Origin: a bacterium
GTDB lineage: Bacteria; Bdellovibrionota; Bdellovibrionia; Bdellovibrionales; Bdellovibrionaceae
NCBI GenBank assembly: GCA_019752925.1
Contig: JAIELP010000001.1
Span: 186,001 to 250,000 of the forward strand
Direction: 5' to 3'
DNA: 64,000 bases
Part shown: positions 4,909-17,229 of the stretch, one piece after another
Position numbering within the stretch: position 1 is the stretch's first letter
How the letters are laid out: every line of letters begins with the position of its first letter
Notes under the pieces: model-generated
Told to the model about the DNA's origin: nothing
The model's input: only the letters and a program-made list of their open reading frames with translations
Databases searched by the model: none
Program-made: the position numbers and the translations under genes

Positions 4909-5427
4909 TTAGATCGATAAACTTAGCCTAGAAACTTTAAACCCAATATCAGTATTTATCCATTTTAAGATATGAATAGGATTTTGAATTAGTCCCAGTT
5001 GATCATGAATAGCTAAATCTGATTTTGACTTTCCGATCAAGTAAAATAAAGACGAGTACTTATAGTTTTCGGCTTTATTGCATATATTGGCTTCGACAGG
5101 GTTTCGATATATGTACTTGTAAGCATTAAGATATTGTGAGTAATTACTTATATATTCAATAGACTGTTCAACTTCTTCCCTTGAGTTGAGCTGTTTCTTT
5201 AATTCTGCTAAAAAAAAATTTTCATTTGTTTCAAAAGTGGCCACAAGCAAATGTATATGTGTGTCCATCATCACAAAGGCTTGAATTTCAATATGATACT
5301 TAAAACTTAATTTACTGATTTGATTTTGTAAAAATAGCCAGTCTAAATCTTTGAGAAATGGATTAACCTGAAAATCTGAGTATATATGAAAATGTCTTTT
5401 GTTTGATTTAAAAACGCTGTTTCTCAC
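4909..5427 (-). CDS. REP-associated tyrosine transposase-like protein (RAYT, Y1 family)
   Basis: The 172-residue protein resembles Y1/IS200-like single-strand transposases of the REP-associated type. It shows the metal-binding HxH pair in MMDTHIHLLV and a downstream helix with the candidate catalytic Tyr in YKYIYRNPVEA, followed by YKYSSLFYL, which matches the family's usual ending. Known RAYTs are single-copy domesticated transposases linked to REP palindromes. Here I see no obvious REP pair flanking the gene and no terminal inverted repeats. It lies just downstream of sodB and its terminator, on the same strand. Whether it is active cannot be judged; the core motifs are intact. Confidence 0.8.
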   Translation of the reverse strand: MRNSVFKSNKRHFHIYSDFQVNPFLKDLDWLFLQNQISKLSFKYHIEIQAFVMMDTHIHLLVATFETNENFFLAELKKQLNSREEVEQSIEYISNYSQYLNAYKYIYRNPVEANICNKAENYKYSSLFYLIGKSKSDLAIHDQLGLIQNPIHILKWINTDIGFKVSRLSLSI

Positions 5428-7598: not shown

Positions 7599-8525
7599 TT
7601 AACGAATGTATTTGATTTCAAAACAGTGATGAATTTTTTGATCATGAAAATCTACGGGAATGGTGTCTTTGGTGATATTTTTTACCCTGAAATTTTTAGA
7701 AATCTCCTCTGAAAGTTTAAAATCCCGCTTATTATTGGAAAAATAGAGTATCCCATCTGGTTTTAAAAACTTCATAACCTGGCTGATTAAGTGATTTTGG
7801 TCAGTTTCCACCTCAAAATCTTCTTTCATGCTTTTTGAATTTGAAAATGTCGGAGGGTCTAAAAAGATGGTATCAAAACTGGCCGCAAAGTCAGGCCAGT
7901 TAACGGCTTCGTCAATCAGCTGCAAAACATCTTCTTCAATAAAATGGTGATCTTTGATCGGAATTTGATTCAGTTTAAAGTTTTCTTGAGCCCATTCGAG
8001 ATAATTTTTCGACATATCAATACTATATGTAGTGGCTCCACATTTTGCGGCCATGACTGATGCGGTTGCTGTGTAACAAAATAAATTTAAAAATCTCTGA
8101 CCTTTGGTTTTTTTTAAAAATTGATAGCGCATCGGGCGGTGATCGAGAAATAGTCCGGTATCCAGATAGTCCCAAAGGTTAACATAAAGATCGACACCAT
8201 TTTCTTTAATGATGATTTTTTCATTTTTGGTATCGAGCTTTTGATATTGTTCGGTACCTTTTTGTCTTTGGCGCCTTTTAACAATAATTTTTGTATCATC
8301 ACAATTAAATATATTTTTAATAGCCGTCAGCAAATGCGGTAAATGATTTTTTTCTTCATCAATTTTTTGGGATTTGTCGTATACCACAAAATGATCTTTG
8401 TAGCGGTCTAAAATAAAAGGAAATTCCGGAATATCACGGTCGTAAATGCGGTAGGCTTCAATTTGGTTTTTTTCAGCCCAAGGTTGAAGCTTCTTTAAAT
8501 TTTTCTCGAGACGGTTCTGAATCAT
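7599..8525 (-). CDS. RlmK-like 23S rRNA (guanine-N7) methyltransferase
   Basis: This 308-residue protein resembles the C-terminal (RlmK) half of the bifunctional RlmKL enzyme, which makes m7G2069 in 23S rRNA. It has the diagnostic start NRLEKNLKKLQPWA, the RQRQKG and LDTGLFLDHRP segments, an AdoMet-binding motif in FLNLFCYTATASV, and the catalytic-region LDPPTFSNS. The N-terminal THUMP plus RlmL half is absent, so it acts alone or with a separate RlmL. No signal peptide; cytoplasmic. Start ATG 8525 is the first residue of the conserved block plus three, so little can be missing. It is divergent from the secreted-protein gene at 8791. Confidence 0.86.
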   Translation of the reverse strand: MIQNRLEKNLKKLQPWAEKNQIEAYRIYDRDIPEFPFILDRYKDHFVVYDKSQKIDEEKNHLPHLLTAIKNIFNCDDTKIIVKRRQRQKGTEQYQKLDTKNEKIIIKENGVDLYVNLWDYLDTGLFLDHRPMRYQFLKKTKGQRFLNLFCYTATASVMAAKCGATTYSIDMSKNYLEWAQENFKLNQIPIKDHHFIEEDVLQLIDEAVNWPDFAASFDTIFLDPPTFSNSKSMKEDFEVETDQNHLISQVMKFLKPDGILYFSNNKRDFKLSEEISKNFRVKNITKDTIPVDFHDQKIHHCFEIKYIR

Positions 8526-8583
8526 AAACTTACTATATCAACAAAAAAAAAGTAATTCTAAGATTTTCTTAATAATTTCAAGT

Positions 8584-8745
8584 ATTAATAGAACTAGACT
8601 CAAAATTATTTTAGAAAACTTTAATAAACGTCGAAAAGCTCTATGGTTGGTAGAGAAATTCGTCATTCCGAACCTCGATTCAAAGCGAGGCCAAGATGTC
8701 GTCTAAACGAAGCTGGGTAAGCCCACTTCGCTTTATGCATTTTTA
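8584..8745 (+). ncRNA. conserved structured element, copy A (putative small RNA)
   Basis: This non-coding stretch between divergent genes is homologous to 11287-11454. The first 53 bases align without gaps with about 43 identities, including CTAGACT and CGTCGAAA. Three hairpins follow: P1 CTCTA/TAGAG (8639-8655), P2 CCTCG/CGAGG (8673-8690) and P3 CGAAG..TGGG/CCCA..CTTCG (8708-8730). It ends in a 17-base block identical in both copies (8727-8743, starting TTCGCTTTATGC). P2 and P3 show paired changes against copy B. Orientation is set by the terminator-like P3 followed by T-rich sequence. Function unknown; it could also be a leader of the gene at 8791. Confidence 0.55.
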
Positions 8746-8790
8746 GGGCTTAAATTAAAGTTAATATCAAAATGAGCCGATAGGTCCAGT

Positions 8791-9588
8791 ATGAAAAATA
8801 TAGTATTCTCCTTTATTCTAGTTGTTTCATTCAGTACTCTTGCGGCCGAAAATTCTCTACTGATAGGTGGAGAAGAAAATTCAGGCTACGAAAACCTCAC
8901 ATGTTCGCAGATGATTACGGCTAACCTCAGGTATCAAGCAAGTTCAAAACTCAATGAAAACGCAATTGCAGCAGAGTTTGTGAAATGTCGTGACCATTTT
9001 TGGAAATCAGACCGTGAACAATGTGTAAAAGAAATCGAAGTGCGCGAAAAAAAATATAAAGACATGATGAACGCTTTTGTTAATGCACTTGGCATTCGAG
9101 TTCAAATCTACGATTCGCTTAGTATTGCCGATAAATCTAAATTGAGTCCGGAATGTAAAAATATAAGTGCAAAATCATACAAGCGTGATTCAAAGATGAA
9201 TGATATAGATTTTTTCCGAAAGCTCTATCTGCAATGTAAAATTAAAACAGATGTTGAGATGGATGCCAGAACTCGCGTCGGTGATTTATACGGTAAAAAC
9301 AAAGAGGCTTATAAAGACCGTGAAGTTTGTAAGACCTATATGTATGAATATTCTAAAAAAATGTACGGCGATCCAATTAAGCCTATGCCAGCTGAAAGTA
9401 AAATTAAAGTTGCTGAGGATATACGTGAAGCCCGAGTGGCCTGTCAGAAGTTGAGTTGCGATACTTTACTTAAAAATCCAACCAATAATCCGAGCCCATG
9501 TTATAGAAACCAATTGCTGGATTGTATGGTGAGCGGATCTGCCGGTGGTGGGTCGGGTGGTAGTGGTACTTCGGGTACTGGTCGCTAA
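8791..9588 (+). CDS. secreted Cys-containing protein of unknown family with Gly/Ser-rich tail
   Basis: The 265-residue protein has a clear signal peptide (MKNIVFSFILVVSFSTLAA-E). The mature part is charged, helical, and carries about a dozen cysteines (for example CSQM, KCRD, EQCVKE, SCDTLL, PSCYR-like spacing), suggesting disulfides in the periplasm or outside. It ends in a low-complexity Gly/Ser/Thr tail of about 17 residues. I recognise no family. A site (AGG) lies 6 bases before ATG 8791. It sits directly after structured element A and tail-to-tail with a LysR regulator, with a single base between the stops. Role unknown. Confidence 0.8.
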   Translation: MKNIVFSFILVVSFSTLAAENSLLIGGEENSGYENLTCSQMITANLRYQASSKLNENAIAAEFVKCRDHFWKSDREQCVKEIEVREKKYKDMMNAFVNALGIRVQIYDSLSIADKSKLSPECKNISAKSYKRDSKMNDIDFFRKLYLQCKIKTDVEMDARTRVGDLYGKNKEAYKDREVCKTYMYEYSKKMYGDPIKPMPAESKIKVAEDIREARVACQKLSCDTLLKNPTNNPSPCYRNQLLDCMVSGSAGGGSGGSGTSGTGR

Positions 9589-9589
9589 C

Positions 9590-10453
9590 CTAAGACAATT
9601 TTTTTATGATAGCCTGAAAGTATTCAGGCTTTTCAGATCTCGGGTACCAAGCCAAAGCTATTTTAAAATCATAAAAATAATCCGCGCCTAGCTTTACTAA
9701 GTGGCCACTTTTAATTAATGGAGTGGCGCACTCTTCGGTTAATACCGAGTATCCCAAACCTGCCTGTATCATTGAAATTAAAGCGTCTGTGTTGTTAGCG
9801 TAGTGGCGTTCTTTGCTGACTGTTGATTTCAATTTGTATTTGTCCAGAAAATTAAAGGTCATTATATCGCTTTGATTAAAATCGATGATGGTTTCAGTTT
9901 TAAGGATTTCTGGAAGTAAGCGCCTCTTCCATGAGGCTGGGCCATAGAGGCAGTATCTCTCGGCTTTAAGAATTTTAGAGTCCATTTCGCGCGTTACATG
10001 GTGGTGTTCGAGAATCGCGAAATCGCAGTAGCCGGTTTTGAGTTTGTCGACATTACTTTCGGTATCCGACAAATCAAAACGAAAACGTAAAAGCGGAAAC
10101 TGGTTTTTTAAACTGATTAAATTAGGAATGACCCTAGAACGCAATATGCTGGATGGACCTGAGATGCTAACTTCGGTGATGCTGTCTTTTGCTGCCCTTT
10201 GTATCCTTGAAAGGGCCATTCCCTCAATTTCTAAAGAACCTTTAACAAACTGAAGCAAAGCTTCGCCTTCAGTGGTGAGCTTCATACCTTTCCTTGATCT
10301 GATGAAAAGCGTTGTTTTCAACTGCTTCTCCAAAGATCTGATTCTTTGGGTCACTCCGGTTTGAGTGATTCCTAAAACATACGAGGCATCTTGGACTGTT
10401 CCCTTACGAACAACAGCCCAAAATGCTTCAAGGGGGGGGCTGAGTAAACTCAT
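9590..10453 (-). CDS. LysR-family transcriptional regulator
   Basis: The 287-residue protein has the LysR winged helix-turn-helix at residues 5-65 (LEAFWAVVRKGTVQDASYVLGITQTGVTQ.. reads as the recognition region), then the effector-binding domain with two Rossmann-like halves (about 90-285). LysR proteins usually control an adjacent divergent gene, here the secreted protein at 10573. Codons 5-8 contain a run of eight C bases on the coding strand, so a one-base slip would truncate the protein right after its start. The effector is unknown. Confidence 0.92.
   Translation of the reverse strand: MSLLSPPLEAFWAVVRKGTVQDASYVLGITQTGVTQRIRSLEKQLKTTLFIRSRKGMKLTTEGEALLQFVKGSLEIEGMALSRIQRAAKDSITEVSISGPSSILRSRVIPNLISLKNQFPLLRFRFDLSDTESNVDKLKTGYCDFAILEHHHVTREMDSKILKAERYCLYGPASWKRRLLPEILKTETIIDFNQSDIMTFNFLDKYKLKSTVSKERHYANNTDALISMIQAGLGYSVLTEECATPLIKSGHLVKLGADYFYDFKIALAWYPRSEKPEYFQAIIKKLS
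10432..10439 (-). repeat. homopolymer tract C8 in the 5' end of the LysR gene
   Basis: Eight consecutive G on the plus strand (C on the coding strand) fall in codons 5 to 8 of the LysR regulator, 14 bases from its start codon. In A+T-rich DNA such a tract is unusual, and tracts of this length can vary by slipped-strand mispairing. In the given sequence the reading frame is intact (Ser-Pro-Pro-Leu). Confidence 0.7.
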
Positions 10454-10527
10454 TTAAATTCATAGATAAATGAAAACTATGAATTATACAAATACTATTT
10501 TTAATCATAACTTGCACAGCATCAGAG

Positions 10528-10667
10528 TTATCAACAAGATCTCTGTGGAAAACAAAAAGAAAGAGAAAGAAAATGAAAACAAAAATAATTTTTTTAACAA
10601 CTACACTAGTGTGTATAAGCTTGAAAGCACAAATGTCTGTGGATAATCATGGGTTGTCTGTGGATAA
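10528..10667. promoter_or_regulatory. cluster of DnaA-box sequences
   Basis: Two exact DnaA boxes (TGTGGATAA, reverse of TTATCCACA) lie at 10638-10646 and 10659-10667, in the same orientation and exactly 21 bases apart. A third sequence fitting the TTWTNCACA consensus (TGTGGAAAA) is at 10544-10552, and a one-mismatch box TTATCAACA is at 10528-10536. The two perfect boxes lie inside the coding region of the secreted protein, within a 13-base direct repeat; the others lie in its promoter region next to A+T-rich DNA. No dnaA, dnaN or other origin-linked gene is in the window, so a regulatory DnaA site is more likely than oriC. Confidence 0.5.
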
Positions 10668-11154
10668 AGGGTATCATCAGCAGCTAACTTGTTTAGCCAG
10701 TACAGAAACTGAAAAGTTTTCAGTTTTGGTTCAGTGGAAAAGTTTGCACGAACATCATTCTGATGGGCGCGCTCCATATTTGAAACAAAGTTTCGCTTAT
10801 GAAATTAAAAATCTTAATACTCAAGAAACTTGGAAAGACAGCTACGCACATTTTTTTTCTGAAAATGCAAAAATAACTAATGGCGATTCAATCTTGAAAT
10901 TTAGCGGCAATTTTTTTATGTATAAACGTTTCGGTGTAATTTCAAGATCAGCTAATATTGATTTTGAAAAACAAAACGCTCAGTTTTCAATAAAAAATAT
11001 TAAATTAACGGCTGCTGATACATACGGAATTCCTAAAAATTACTGTAATCCGCCGACGCGCCTTTGTGGATCAGAACCAATTTACATTGCACCGACAATA
11101 CTAGATATAGTGTTTGAAAACTCGAGCTGTGAATACTCTGAAGCAACAAAGTGA
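10573..11154 (+). CDS. secreted protein of unknown family
   Basis: The 193-residue protein has a signal peptide (MKTKIIFLTTTLVCISLKAQ). The mature part looks beta-rich, with a C-terminal pair of Cys-containing loops (NYCNPPTRLCG and SSCEY) that could form disulfides. A short internal repeat SVDNHGL/SVDKG near residues 22-33 is encoded by a 13-base direct repeat containing DnaA boxes. Start ATG 10573 follows a purine-rich AAGAGAAAGAAA. It is divergent from the LysR regulator and may be its target (inference). I recognise no homologous family. Confidence 0.76.
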   Translation: MKTKIIFLTTTLVCISLKAQMSVDNHGLSVDKGYHQQLTCLASTETEKFSVLVQWKSLHEHHSDGRAPYLKQSFAYEIKNLNTQETWKDSYAHFFSENAKITNGDSILKFSGNFFMYKRFGVISRSANIDFEKQNAQFSIKNIKLTAADTYGIPKNYCNPPTRLCGSEPIYIAPTILDIVFENSSCEYSEATK

Positions 11155-11186
11155 ACAATCTCAACTCGGCTTCCGTGAGTTAAAAA

Positions 11187-11246
11187 TCTCTGGATTTTAA
11201 GTCCATCCTAAACTTGTACACGTTGATGGGAACTAAAGTTCAGAGA
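11187..11246 (+). other. long imperfect RNA hairpin
   Basis: Starting 33 bases after the stop of the secreted-protein gene, 11187-11207 pairs with 11225-11246 in 19 base pairs (TCTCTG/CAGAGA at the base, CCATC/GATGG at the top). It has two G-U pairs, one two-base mismatch and one bulge around a 17-base loop. There is no U-tract after it, so it is not a classical terminator. It may be a 3' stabilising structure or part of a transcript with element B just downstream. A small AACTC/GAGTT hairpin (11163-11181) precedes it. Confidence 0.5.
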
Positions 11247-11286
11247 CTACTTAATCAGATCTAAAAATGATTTTATCAGTTTTAAA

Positions 11287-11454
11287 ATTAATAAAACTAG
11301 ACTTAAAACCACTTTAGAATAGTTCAAAAAGCGTCGAAAGTGTCTATACTTGCGAAGTATATTTAAATCCGGCATTCGGAACCTCCTTTTAAATCGGAGA
11401 TTTTGAAGCTCTAAAGCGAAGTTGAGATGTTCAATTTCGCTTTATGCATTTTAA
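11287..11454 (+). ncRNA. conserved structured element, copy B (putative small RNA)
   Basis: This is the second copy of the element at 8584-8745, here between convergent genes, so it cannot be a leader of a plus-strand gene. It has the same 53-base leading block. P1 is replaced by an unrelated stem at the same place (TATACTT/AAGTATA, 11345-11361). P2 is CTCC/GGAG (11383-11399), a paired change against copy A. P3 is a 13-pair stem AAAGCGAAGTTGA / TCAATTTCGCTTT (11413-11443), followed by the shared TTTATGCATTTT end. Structure kept while sequence changes suggests a functional RNA. Confidence 0.58.
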
Positions 11455-11461
11455 CGGCCTG

Positions 11462-12427
11462 TTAATAATTTTTAATGAGGTCTAATCCCTTATAAAGTGA
11501 AGCCACTTCTTTTTCATACCCATTAAACATTAAGCTCGGAATGCGCTTAGGAAAAATGCTTCCATTAATCACTCGCTCAGTTTCTTGAGTCCAGCGCGGA
11601 TGCGAACGCTTGGGATTTACGTTGGCATAAAAGCCGTACTCATCTGATGCTAGCGACTCCCAAAGAGTTGTTGGCTGTTTTTCTACAAATGAAATTTTTT
11701 GAATAGATTTAATGCTTTTGTATCCGTATTTCCACGGCACGATCAAGCGAATTGGCGCGCCATTTTGTTTAGGTAAATCTTTTCCGTACATGCCGGTAAC
11801 AAGCATTGCCAAAGGATGCATAGCTTCTTCCATAGTTAAAGCCTCTGTATAAGGCCATGGATACTGCGGTAAATTCCCCATATTGGTTCCGATTTTTTTA
11901 TCAGAAAAAGTCTGGAACTGAATATATTTAGCTTTTGGGTCCACATTAAATTTTTTAATCAGATTTGCCAGCGGAAATCCAACCCACGGAATCACCATGG
12001 ACCAAGCTTCAACACAGCGGAAGCGGTAGATGCGTTCTTCAAGGCCGCCACTCATTTTAATCAGCTCATCCACATCAAAAGTTTTTGTTTTATCTTTAAG
12101 TCCAGAAACTTCAATTTTCCATGGAGCAGTTAGGTTCCATTTTTCTACTTTGTCTTTTACGGCATCTTTATCTAAAGAAAATTCGTAAAAATTATTATAG
12201 CTTGTAGCTAATTTTTCTTTGGTTAGCTCACGGTCTTTGTCTTCAACTTTAAAAGAGGAATTAGTAGTGTATTGCAGTGACTTAGCCCAGCTCCAGTCGT
12301 TGAATAAAGTCGACATAATTACAGAGGTGCCACCTAGTTGCAGTAACTGCCTGCGGTTAAGATAAACCCATTCTTCAGTGACCTGTTGTTCAGACACTTC
12401 CCAGCTTTTTTTTGTTTTGATCAACAT
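11462..12427 (-). CDS. msrP: protein-methionine-sulfoxide reductase, molybdopterin subunit
   Basis: This 321-residue periplasmic molybdoenzyme repairs oxidised methionines in envelope proteins. A twin-arginine export signal is visible (NRRQLLQLGG, Arg25-Arg26). The molybdenum-ligating Cys is in YRFRCVEAW, near residue 138, followed by the family segments WVGFPL and the C-terminal RLIVPWKYGYKSIKSI. I chose ATG 12427, which has a GAGG site; the frame is open 13 codons further, but that would run almost into msrQ. It is divergent from msrQ with 42 bases between starts, instead of the usual msrPQ operon order. Confidence 0.93.
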   Translation of the reverse strand: MLIKTKKSWEVSEQQVTEEWVYLNRRQLLQLGGTSVIMSTLFNDWSWAKSLQYTTNSSFKVEDKDRELTKEKLATSYNNFYEFSLDKDAVKDKVEKWNLTAPWKIEVSGLKDKTKTFDVDELIKMSGGLEERIYRFRCVEAWSMVIPWVGFPLANLIKKFNVDPKAKYIQFQTFSDKKIGTNMGNLPQYPWPYTEALTMEEAMHPLAMLVTGMYGKDLPKQNGAPIRLIVPWKYGYKSIKSIQKISFVEKQPTTLWESLASDEYGFYANVNPKRSHPRWTQETERVINGSIFPKRIPSLMFNGYEKEVASLYKGLDLIKNY

Positions 12428-12469
12428 AAAAATTACCTCTAGAATTAATGTTACGGGGAGTGACATTAA

Positions 12470-16796: not shown

Positions 16797-17200
16797 GGCA
16801 GGGGTCCGACAGATAATCGCTGCTTATACGGTTAATTCCGTTTAGGGAGAGGAAAGTCCGAGCTTCATTGAGCAACACAGGGGGTAACGCCCCTCCGCCG
16901 CAAGGTGAGGAACAGTGGAACAGAAAGAATATCCGAGGCATTGATCTTAAAATCGGGAACGGGAGATTTTAAGGGAGCTGGCGGAGTGAAAACAGCCAAA
17001 CTCTGTGTGAAGCAAGATCAAATAGGGAAGCACAAGACCTAGCAATAGGGACTTGAAAGAGTGGCTCGCTCGAGGCTTCCGGGTAAGATCGCTTGAGCGT
17101 TTAAGCAATTAAACGCCTAGAGGAATGATTGTCGAAGGACAAAAAGAGATCGTGGTAATCTTTGTCCGGAACAGAACTCGGCTTAACGTTGGACCCCGCC
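16797..17200 (+). rRNA. rnpB: RNase P catalytic RNA (rnpB); ncRNA, not ribosomal RNA
   Basis: This is the bacterial type A RNase P RNA that cleaves the 5' leader of pre-tRNAs with the RnpA protein. The type field says rRNA in error of category; read it as a structural non-coding RNA. Visible are the P1 helix closing both ends (GGGGTCC near 16801 with GGACCCC near 17191), the conserved core GAGGAAAGTCCG at about 16850, and the 3' core ACAGAACTCGGCTTA at about 17171. The length, about 404 bases, is normal. Its end is 5 bases from the stop of the convergent DinB-like gene. Confidence 0.95.
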
Positions 17201-17229
17201 ACCTTTTACAAAAGTGGTAAGCCCTTTTT
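17199..17229 (+). terminator. probable rnpB terminator
   Basis: CCAC(C)TTT pairs with AAAGTGG around a short loop (17199-17217), followed by TAAGCCCTTTTT. The hairpin lies over the stop codon region of the convergent DinB-like gene. Confidence 0.45.

Follow-up and report, generated by a model that had tools for sequence, protein, structure and literature searches.

The window analyzed here is a 64,000-nt stretch of a Bdellovibrionaceae genome (GCA_019752925.1, contig JAIELP010000001.1, positions 186,001 to 250,000), in which two copies of a repeated element, copy A (8584–8745) and copy B (11287–11454), lie on the same strand. A preliminary description had regarded the copies as homologous non-coding blocks belonging to a probable, undescribed small RNA family. 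The repeat itself was confirmed by direct counting, as the gapless opening block is identical at 43 of 53 bases and the 17 bases at the end are the same in both copies (8727–8743 and 11436–11452). Five copies were found in the window genome by BLASTN at E ≤ 1e-12, and therefore their likeness exceeds chance; BLASTN matches were also obtained in 9 of 58 other genomes searched (10 of 59 with the own genome). Copy B is flanked, as described, by convergent genes at 10573–11154 (plus strand) and 11462–12466 (minus strand). The observation was thus real, while its interpretation was mostly wrong: the element is apparently an undescribed minus-strand gene of about 40 codons with a Shine-Dalgarno (SD) sequence, and the 53 bases taken as non-coding are the reverse complement of codons under purifying selection. 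The three hairpins of the description, P1, P2 and P3, are the N-terminal codons, the SD hairpin and the promoter/terminator region of this gene, respectively. Its strand, its open reading frame (ORF) and about 135 further element bases beyond the low-coordinate end of copy B had been overlooked; the peptide ORF is shorter than the 60-aa limit of the ORF listing then in use. The features of the two copies are as follows.

Copy B, 11446..11459, minus strand: sigma54-type promoter, GG at 11459–11458, N10, GC at 11447–11446.
Copy B, 11421..11434, minus strand: predicted transcript 5′ end and first strand of the 5′-3′ pairing, from swap tests and folds.
Copy B, 11398..11411, minus strand: second 5′ strand of the long-range pairing, from folds.
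Copy B, 11382..11399, minus strand: SD sequence and its masking hairpin (P2), GGAGG at 11386–11382, CTCC at 11399–11396.
Copy B, 11375..11247, minus strand: peptide ORF, 42 aa, ATG at 11375–11373, stop codon at 11249–11247.
Copy B, 11217..11226, minus strand: YCAACRTGTW motif 3′ of the stop codon, from a motif scan.
Copy B, 11192..11204, minus strand: GGACTTAAAATCC hairpin in the 3′ untranslated region, kept in nine aligned copies.
Copy B, 11177..11191, minus strand: 3′ strand, predicted partner of 11398–11411, from folds.
Copy B, 11152..11165, minus strand: 3′ strand, predicted partner of 11421–11434, from swap tests and folds.
Copy B, 11412..11454, plus strand: opposite-strand terminator (P3), stem 11412–11444 followed by a T-tail.
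Copy A, 8737..8750, minus strand: promoter remnant, GC retained at 8738–8737, AG in place of GG at 8750–8749.
Copy A, 8704..8745, plus strand: terminator-like hairpin and T-tail, read from the sequence.
Copy A, 8673..8690, minus strand: SD sequence (GAGG) and masking hairpin, read from the sequence.
Copy A, 8666..8538, minus strand: peptide ORF, 42 aa, from ORF search and profile match.

On the minus strand of the copies, an ATG that opens a frame of about 40 codons is closely preceded by GGAGG or a similar sequence (the ORF printout of the copies was restricted to frames with an SD-like site). The peptide of copy B reads MPDLNILRKYRHFRRFLNYSKVVLSLVLLILKLIKSFLDLIK, and the C-termini of the copy A and copy B peptides differ. 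From the fetched loci, 116 ORF matches were obtained, 112 of them at ≥18 bits, and among these 112 an ATG start was present in 111 and an SD pattern in 102. After exclusion of duplicates, of the four matches scoring <18 bits and of copies close to a contig end, 101–111 copies were left, depending on the test; the 10 ORFs lacking the SD pattern were removed from the coding and SD tests, and tests that called for a GG-N10-GC at its expected place used 63–68 copies. The peptides have a median length of 40 aa (range 25–85, n = 102), compared with a yardstick of <60 aa for type I toxins. In 27 disjoint pairs of copies, the proportions of synonymous (pS) and non-synonymous (pN) differences were 0.248 and 0.124, a ratio of 0.50 (Fisher p 1e-14), and 200 changes fell on third codon positions vs. 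160 and 113 on the others. Over 72 overlapping pairs the true frame gave the lowest pN/pS, 0.49, vs. 0.56–1.39 in the other five frames. The constraint was concentrated in the helix, with a pN/pS of 0.86 upstream of the conserved arginines and 0.39 in the rest, at equal synonymous rates. These comparisons of sequence indicated that purifying selection acts on the protein in the minus-strand frame. AlphaFold2 predicted a single helix over residues 3–38 (predicted local distance difference test score 84.6, predicted template modelling score 0.42), and each of the 66 non-redundant peptides has a net charge of at least +2, with a median of +5. The peptide is predicted to be a cationic helix, probably one that inserts into the membrane.

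The three hairpins, each tested separately across the family copies, were all supported. In the P1 region, codons 1–15 reached the top 5% of folds relative to mononucleotide shuffles in 37 of 101 copies on the antisense and 31 of 101 on the sense strand, vs. 10 and 22 of 101, respectively, for codons 16–30 used as the control. P2 stood as a hairpin, its identity being the SD-masking hairpin of the minus-strand gene: 44 of 101 copies have a Watson-Crick match of 5 nt or more upstream of the SD, compared with a mean of 12.6 and a maximum of 20 in shuffles (n = 100). The arms of P3 co-vary, as the native arms paired better than all 30 swapped ones in 28 of 68 copies, with about 2 expected. It was also borne out that no known RNA family fits the element. 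At gathering scores, Rfam reported RNase P alone in the whole window (16801–17201) and nothing in the element, and at a lax threshold over 8400–11600 it gave three sub-threshold matches, the nearest being the bantam miRNA at 11246–11326 (E 0.39). Conserved, covarying structure with homologues elsewhere, as proposed for a functional RNA, was therefore upheld, whereas its assignment to a stand-alone plus-strand small RNA was not.

The consensus of sigma54 promoters is GG-N10-GC at −24/−12. This pattern lies upstream in 77 of 111 copies, compared with an average of 13.2 and at most 22 after mononucleotide shuffling (n = 500), and alternative spacings of 6–9 and 11–15 were found in 8–29 of 111. 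Its distance to the ATG downstream is 77–95 nt in 68 of 110 copies, and strong conservation starts at the GG; conservation of the GG and GC themselves is fixed by the selection of rows, that of the flanking AAAATGCA is not. Within the window genome the GG is retained in two of five copies, including copy B and excluding copy A. From the promoter position, transcription of copy B is predicted to start at about 11434.

Overlapping this promoter on the opposite strand, a terminator scan of copy B identified a 15-pair plus-strand terminator at 11412–11444. Behind P3, the plus strand carries a mean of 4.43 T in 8 nt, with at least 5 T in 41 of 68 copies, while the sense side carries a mean of 2.12 T in 8, with at least 5 T in 4 of 68 (background 2.2–2.4). 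P3 was also considered as an insulating terminator of the sense strand, a reading that was dropped because the sense-side T count is at background. The pattern makes likely an antisense RNA read from the plus strand and ending at P3, which would be what the preliminary description had glimpsed.

Pairing between the two ends of the predicted message was evaluated by exchanging 3′ regions among copies. Of 108 copies, 45 had a native 5′-3′ duplex stronger than each of the 25 swapped duplexes, against an expectation of about 4, and the median z was −2.0 (below −2 in 54 copies, above 0 in 12); in the promoter-slot subset, 34 of 63 copies beat 10 swaps. In these 63 copies, the pairing frequency reached 0.90–0.94 at 15–17 nt past the G of the GC (+3 to +5, with this G at −13), exceeded 0.8 over 11 bases, and rose a second time at 43–52 nt (maximum 0.75), compared with about 0.5 in swaps. 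Pairing begins some 2 nt downstream of the predicted start, and in the DNA before it pairing was not above that in swaps. The 3′ end is thus complementary to the predicted 5′ end of the RNA, and the start of the RNA is placed alike by two independent predictions. Among 14 hand-picked full-length folds, the mean z was −5.6 (range −3.2 to −9.2), and the first bases paired with the 3′ region in all 14. When nine aligned copies were folded to a consensus, no more than part of the long-range helix was recovered, with double changes in 13 of 35 pairs, because indels misalign the loop; swap tests were used in its place. Of 110 copies, 35 contain the YCAACRTGTW motif, vs. an average of 1.4 and at most 6 in shuffles (n = 100), an excess that is inflated since the motif was defined on the same data as counted.

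The copies of the window genome differ in how complete they are. Copy B (L001) and L002 look intact from their sequences and passed the swap test, and L003, L004 and copy A (L005) failed it; the duplex z was −2.5 for copy B and +1.5 for copy A. Copy A and L003 have no 3′ module, and the ATG of the next gene (8525) lies 12 bases beyond the stop of the copy A ORF; copy A is probably a decayed remnant with an open frame. L004 (contig 7, 1440–1760) is shortened within the ORF: it stops after 29 codons and is directly followed by 3′-module-like sequence, as if an internal stretch had been lost.

The distribution of the family was then assayed with profiles, the scans being confined to genomes of the phylum. 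With the first profile, 36 of 99 genomes were positive, own genome included (E ≤ 0.01), and with a profile of 66 sequences 45 of 368 were (E ≤ 1e-4), with up to 13 matches per genome. Of these 45, 36 belong to the same family and 9 to other parts of the order; all positive genomes thus fall in one order, and the share of the 368 lying outside that order is not listed. A DNA pattern run against a species-level collection gave 6 stretches, 5 of them from Pseudobdellovibrionaceae and uncultured Bdellovibrio metagenome-assembled genomes. The sixth, a Spirochaetales record, has an unrelated reading frame and was rejected as matching by chance. One locus, L064 (G029:C129, 130500–134000), holds four head-to-tail units spaced 455–504 nt apart, each with one peptide ORF and a 7-bp SD hairpin, and bracketed by the near-matching inverted sequences GACTGAGTCATTTG / CAAATGACTCAGTC and variants.

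Comparisons with known proteins gave little. Searching Pfam and NCBIfam with the 66 members, we found weak single-member matches only, PSM-delta being the best, and no convincing match to known type I toxin families, for some of which the two databases lack models. No AapA-named family was among these matches; the presence of an AapA model was left unchecked and no direct alignment was made. PADLOC and PHROGs returned nothing for four peptides. A PDB sequence search gave three matches to DHT03 chains, the best with E 0.0021 over 15 residues, and a PDB fold search gave none. Nor did searches of an open-licence literature collection, judged by titles and abstract openings, bring up an account of the element.

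Taken together, we consider it probable that the element is a self-silencing peptide gene of type I toxin-like design, with a sigma54-type promoter and an antisense partner. Comparing the copies with one another established five sequence features: the frame that codes for the peptide, the hairpin at the SD, the promoter-like sequence, the plus-strand terminator and the 5′-3′ pairing. We infer where the transcript ends, that an antisense RNA exists, that the peptide inserts into the membrane and is toxic, and that the closed form is silent. Under this scheme, a minus-strand gene for a cationic membrane helix of about 40 aa would be driven by the sigma54-type promoter, and an upstream anti-SD hairpin would cover the SD during synthesis of the RNA. 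Once the 3′ end is finished, its last part would pair with the 5′ end and close the message. A cis-antisense RNA read from the plus strand, with its 3′ end at the promoter-overlapping terminator, would anneal to the 5′ region of the message and eliminate it. Input from a sigma54 activator, or 3′ trimming, may free translation, and the released peptide would depolarize or stall the cell. A more specific version is doubtful, though still a serious possibility: a sigma54-driven type I family, the first in the Bdellovibrio lineage, with the antisense terminator inside the toxin promoter and the N-terminal codons serving as a barcode. The drifting N-terminal codons would then keep a hairpin rather than a protein sequence, and each of up to 13 paralogues would answer to its own antisense RNA only.

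Several results weigh against the self-silencing toxin-like gene. RpoN was not found in the window genome, a 94% complete draft. In the search for an antisense sigma70 promoter within the ORF, which was restricted to the 64 copies (of 101) that allowed anchoring, the best score was 7.00 vs. 7.22 in shuffles (scores of at least 9 numbered 13 on the plus and 7 on the sense strand), and no plus-strand promoter was found behind the YCAACRTGTW motif (0.97 vs. 1.51 in shuffles). The antisense T-tail coincides with an A-run in the promoter and so might have another cause. As many as 63 of 108 copies fail to beat all 25 swaps, and 12 have a positive z; truncated copies and close relatives among the swaps explain some of these misses, not all. 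In the 14 folds, the mean unpaired fraction of the SD was 0.04–0.50 in full-length and 0.12–0.53 in 3′-truncated RNAs; the SD is equally open with or without the 3′ end, and the folds therefore fail to show that the 3′ end hides it. The hydrophobic moment exceeded shuffles (p < 0.05) in only 45% of the 66 peptides, and toxicity and the transcripts are things that we only infer. As to RpoN, it was present in 35 of 38 relatives, those missing it besides the window genome being drafts 64, 79, and 86% complete. Two genes flanking rpoN in a relative (lptC-like and hpf-like) were also without match in the window genome, while other members of the genus were matched by the same queries (7 of 7 and 6 of 7 genomes); therefore, the rpoN locus is probably unassembled in this draft. 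The draft also contains 8 strong matches to the sigma54-activator domain, weaker ones being disregarded since the family also matches all 14 controls.

The main competitor, which we hold to be unlikely, is a stress-induced small membrane protein that is no toxin, YohP-like, with a structured mRNA and no antisense antitoxin. The protein-level evidence, selection and helix, fits it equally well, the searches for an antisense promoter were negative, and the SD is predicted to be no more open after removal of the 3′ end. However, a co-varying opposite-strand terminator, 5′-3′ pairing, and multi-copy and tandem occurrence with truncated copies are all typical of type I toxin loci. The stand-alone plus-strand small RNA of the preliminary description, with the ORF incidental, could draw on the slightly better antisense than sense folding of P1 and on the end of P3 that resembles a plus-strand terminator; we regard it as highly improbable in view of the purifying selection in the minus-strand frame, the SD and ATG kept by diverged copies, the orientation of the promoter and the extension of the element past the plus-strand block.

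A dispersed mobile repeat resembling a miniature inverted-repeat transposable element, with inverted-repeat ends there by happenstance, would account for up to 13 matches per genome and for the tandem units of 455–504 nt in one genome, but conservation starts at the promoter element and the frame is under coding constraint. Three narrow searches gave it no convincing match either: a tblastn of one peptide against phages and plasmids yielded only matches at E 4 to 10, and viral contigs yielded nothing beyond chance for one DNA pattern. It has a very slight chance of being right, and slighter still, the least of all readings considered, is that of a PSM-like cytolytic peptide aimed by the predator at its prey. 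The lineage is largely predatory, and 1 of 66 members weakly matches PSM-delta (E 0.0015 in NCBIfam, 0.0038 in Pfam); this match is at chance level for 66 queries, however, and the message looks silenced.

By analogy, the locus works like the type I toxin-antitoxin systems AapA, Hok and TisB, with membership not established. For AapA/IsoA of Helicobacter pylori, part of PMC6733600 describes an anti-SD hairpin that forms first and a later 5′-3′ long-distance interaction in the full-length mRNA. The present element shares with it a small ORF, several chromosomal copies, the upstream SD hairpin and the 5′-3′ interaction (PMC6733600, in part). The AapA/IsoA system has a cis-antisense RNA (same part of PMC6733600); here such an RNA is probable, predicted from the terminator. 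Unlike AapA/IsoA, the element has a sigma54-type promoter and an opposite-strand terminator overlapping it, and its silencing is a prediction. Escherichia coli TisB/IstR-1 offers a short cationic helix of amphipathic type, a structured 5′ untranslated region and an inducible promoter as common points, TisB being controlled by the SOS response and by the RNA antitoxin IstR-1 (PMC8309996, in part); the sigma54-type promoter and the 5′-3′ pairing set the element apart, and the likeness is without established sequence kinship. A long-distance interaction of the toxin mRNA ends is known for Hok/Sok, as cited in the relevant part of PMC6733600. The message would here likewise be closed by end-to-end pairing, and the peptide differs. 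Hok/Sok has an overlapping reader ORF, mok. Structured transcripts are also on record in the same wider lineage, namely merRNA and other attack-phase small RNAs of Bdellovibrio bacteriovorus HD100; unlike the element, merRNA is a cyclic di-GMP riboswitch RNA (PMC3627812, in part). The peptide family had no match in what is presumably the HD100 genome.

According to part of a 2025 paper, type I systems had, before its cyanobacterial case, been known only from Proteobacteria, Firmicutes and Tenericutes (PMC12390103). If our reading is true, Bdellovibrionota would join the phyla with type I systems, and a membrane-peptide switch would be tied to sigma54 in predators. About 100 natural variants of an end-paired mRNA also provide material for studying folding, metastable hairpins and antisense specificity. 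With an ORF of about 40 codons, such a gene tends to escape annotation.

Three other features of the window were recorded. A 172-aa ORF at 4909–5427 (minus strand) contains a HIHLLV stretch and had no Pfam match at 0.001; this stretch is reminiscent of repetitive extragenic palindrome (REP)-associated transposases. A LysR-type regulator gene (9590–10453, minus strand) carries an eight-G run in its first codons (10430–10440). The RNase P RNA at 16801–17201 is of bacterial class A (Rfam).

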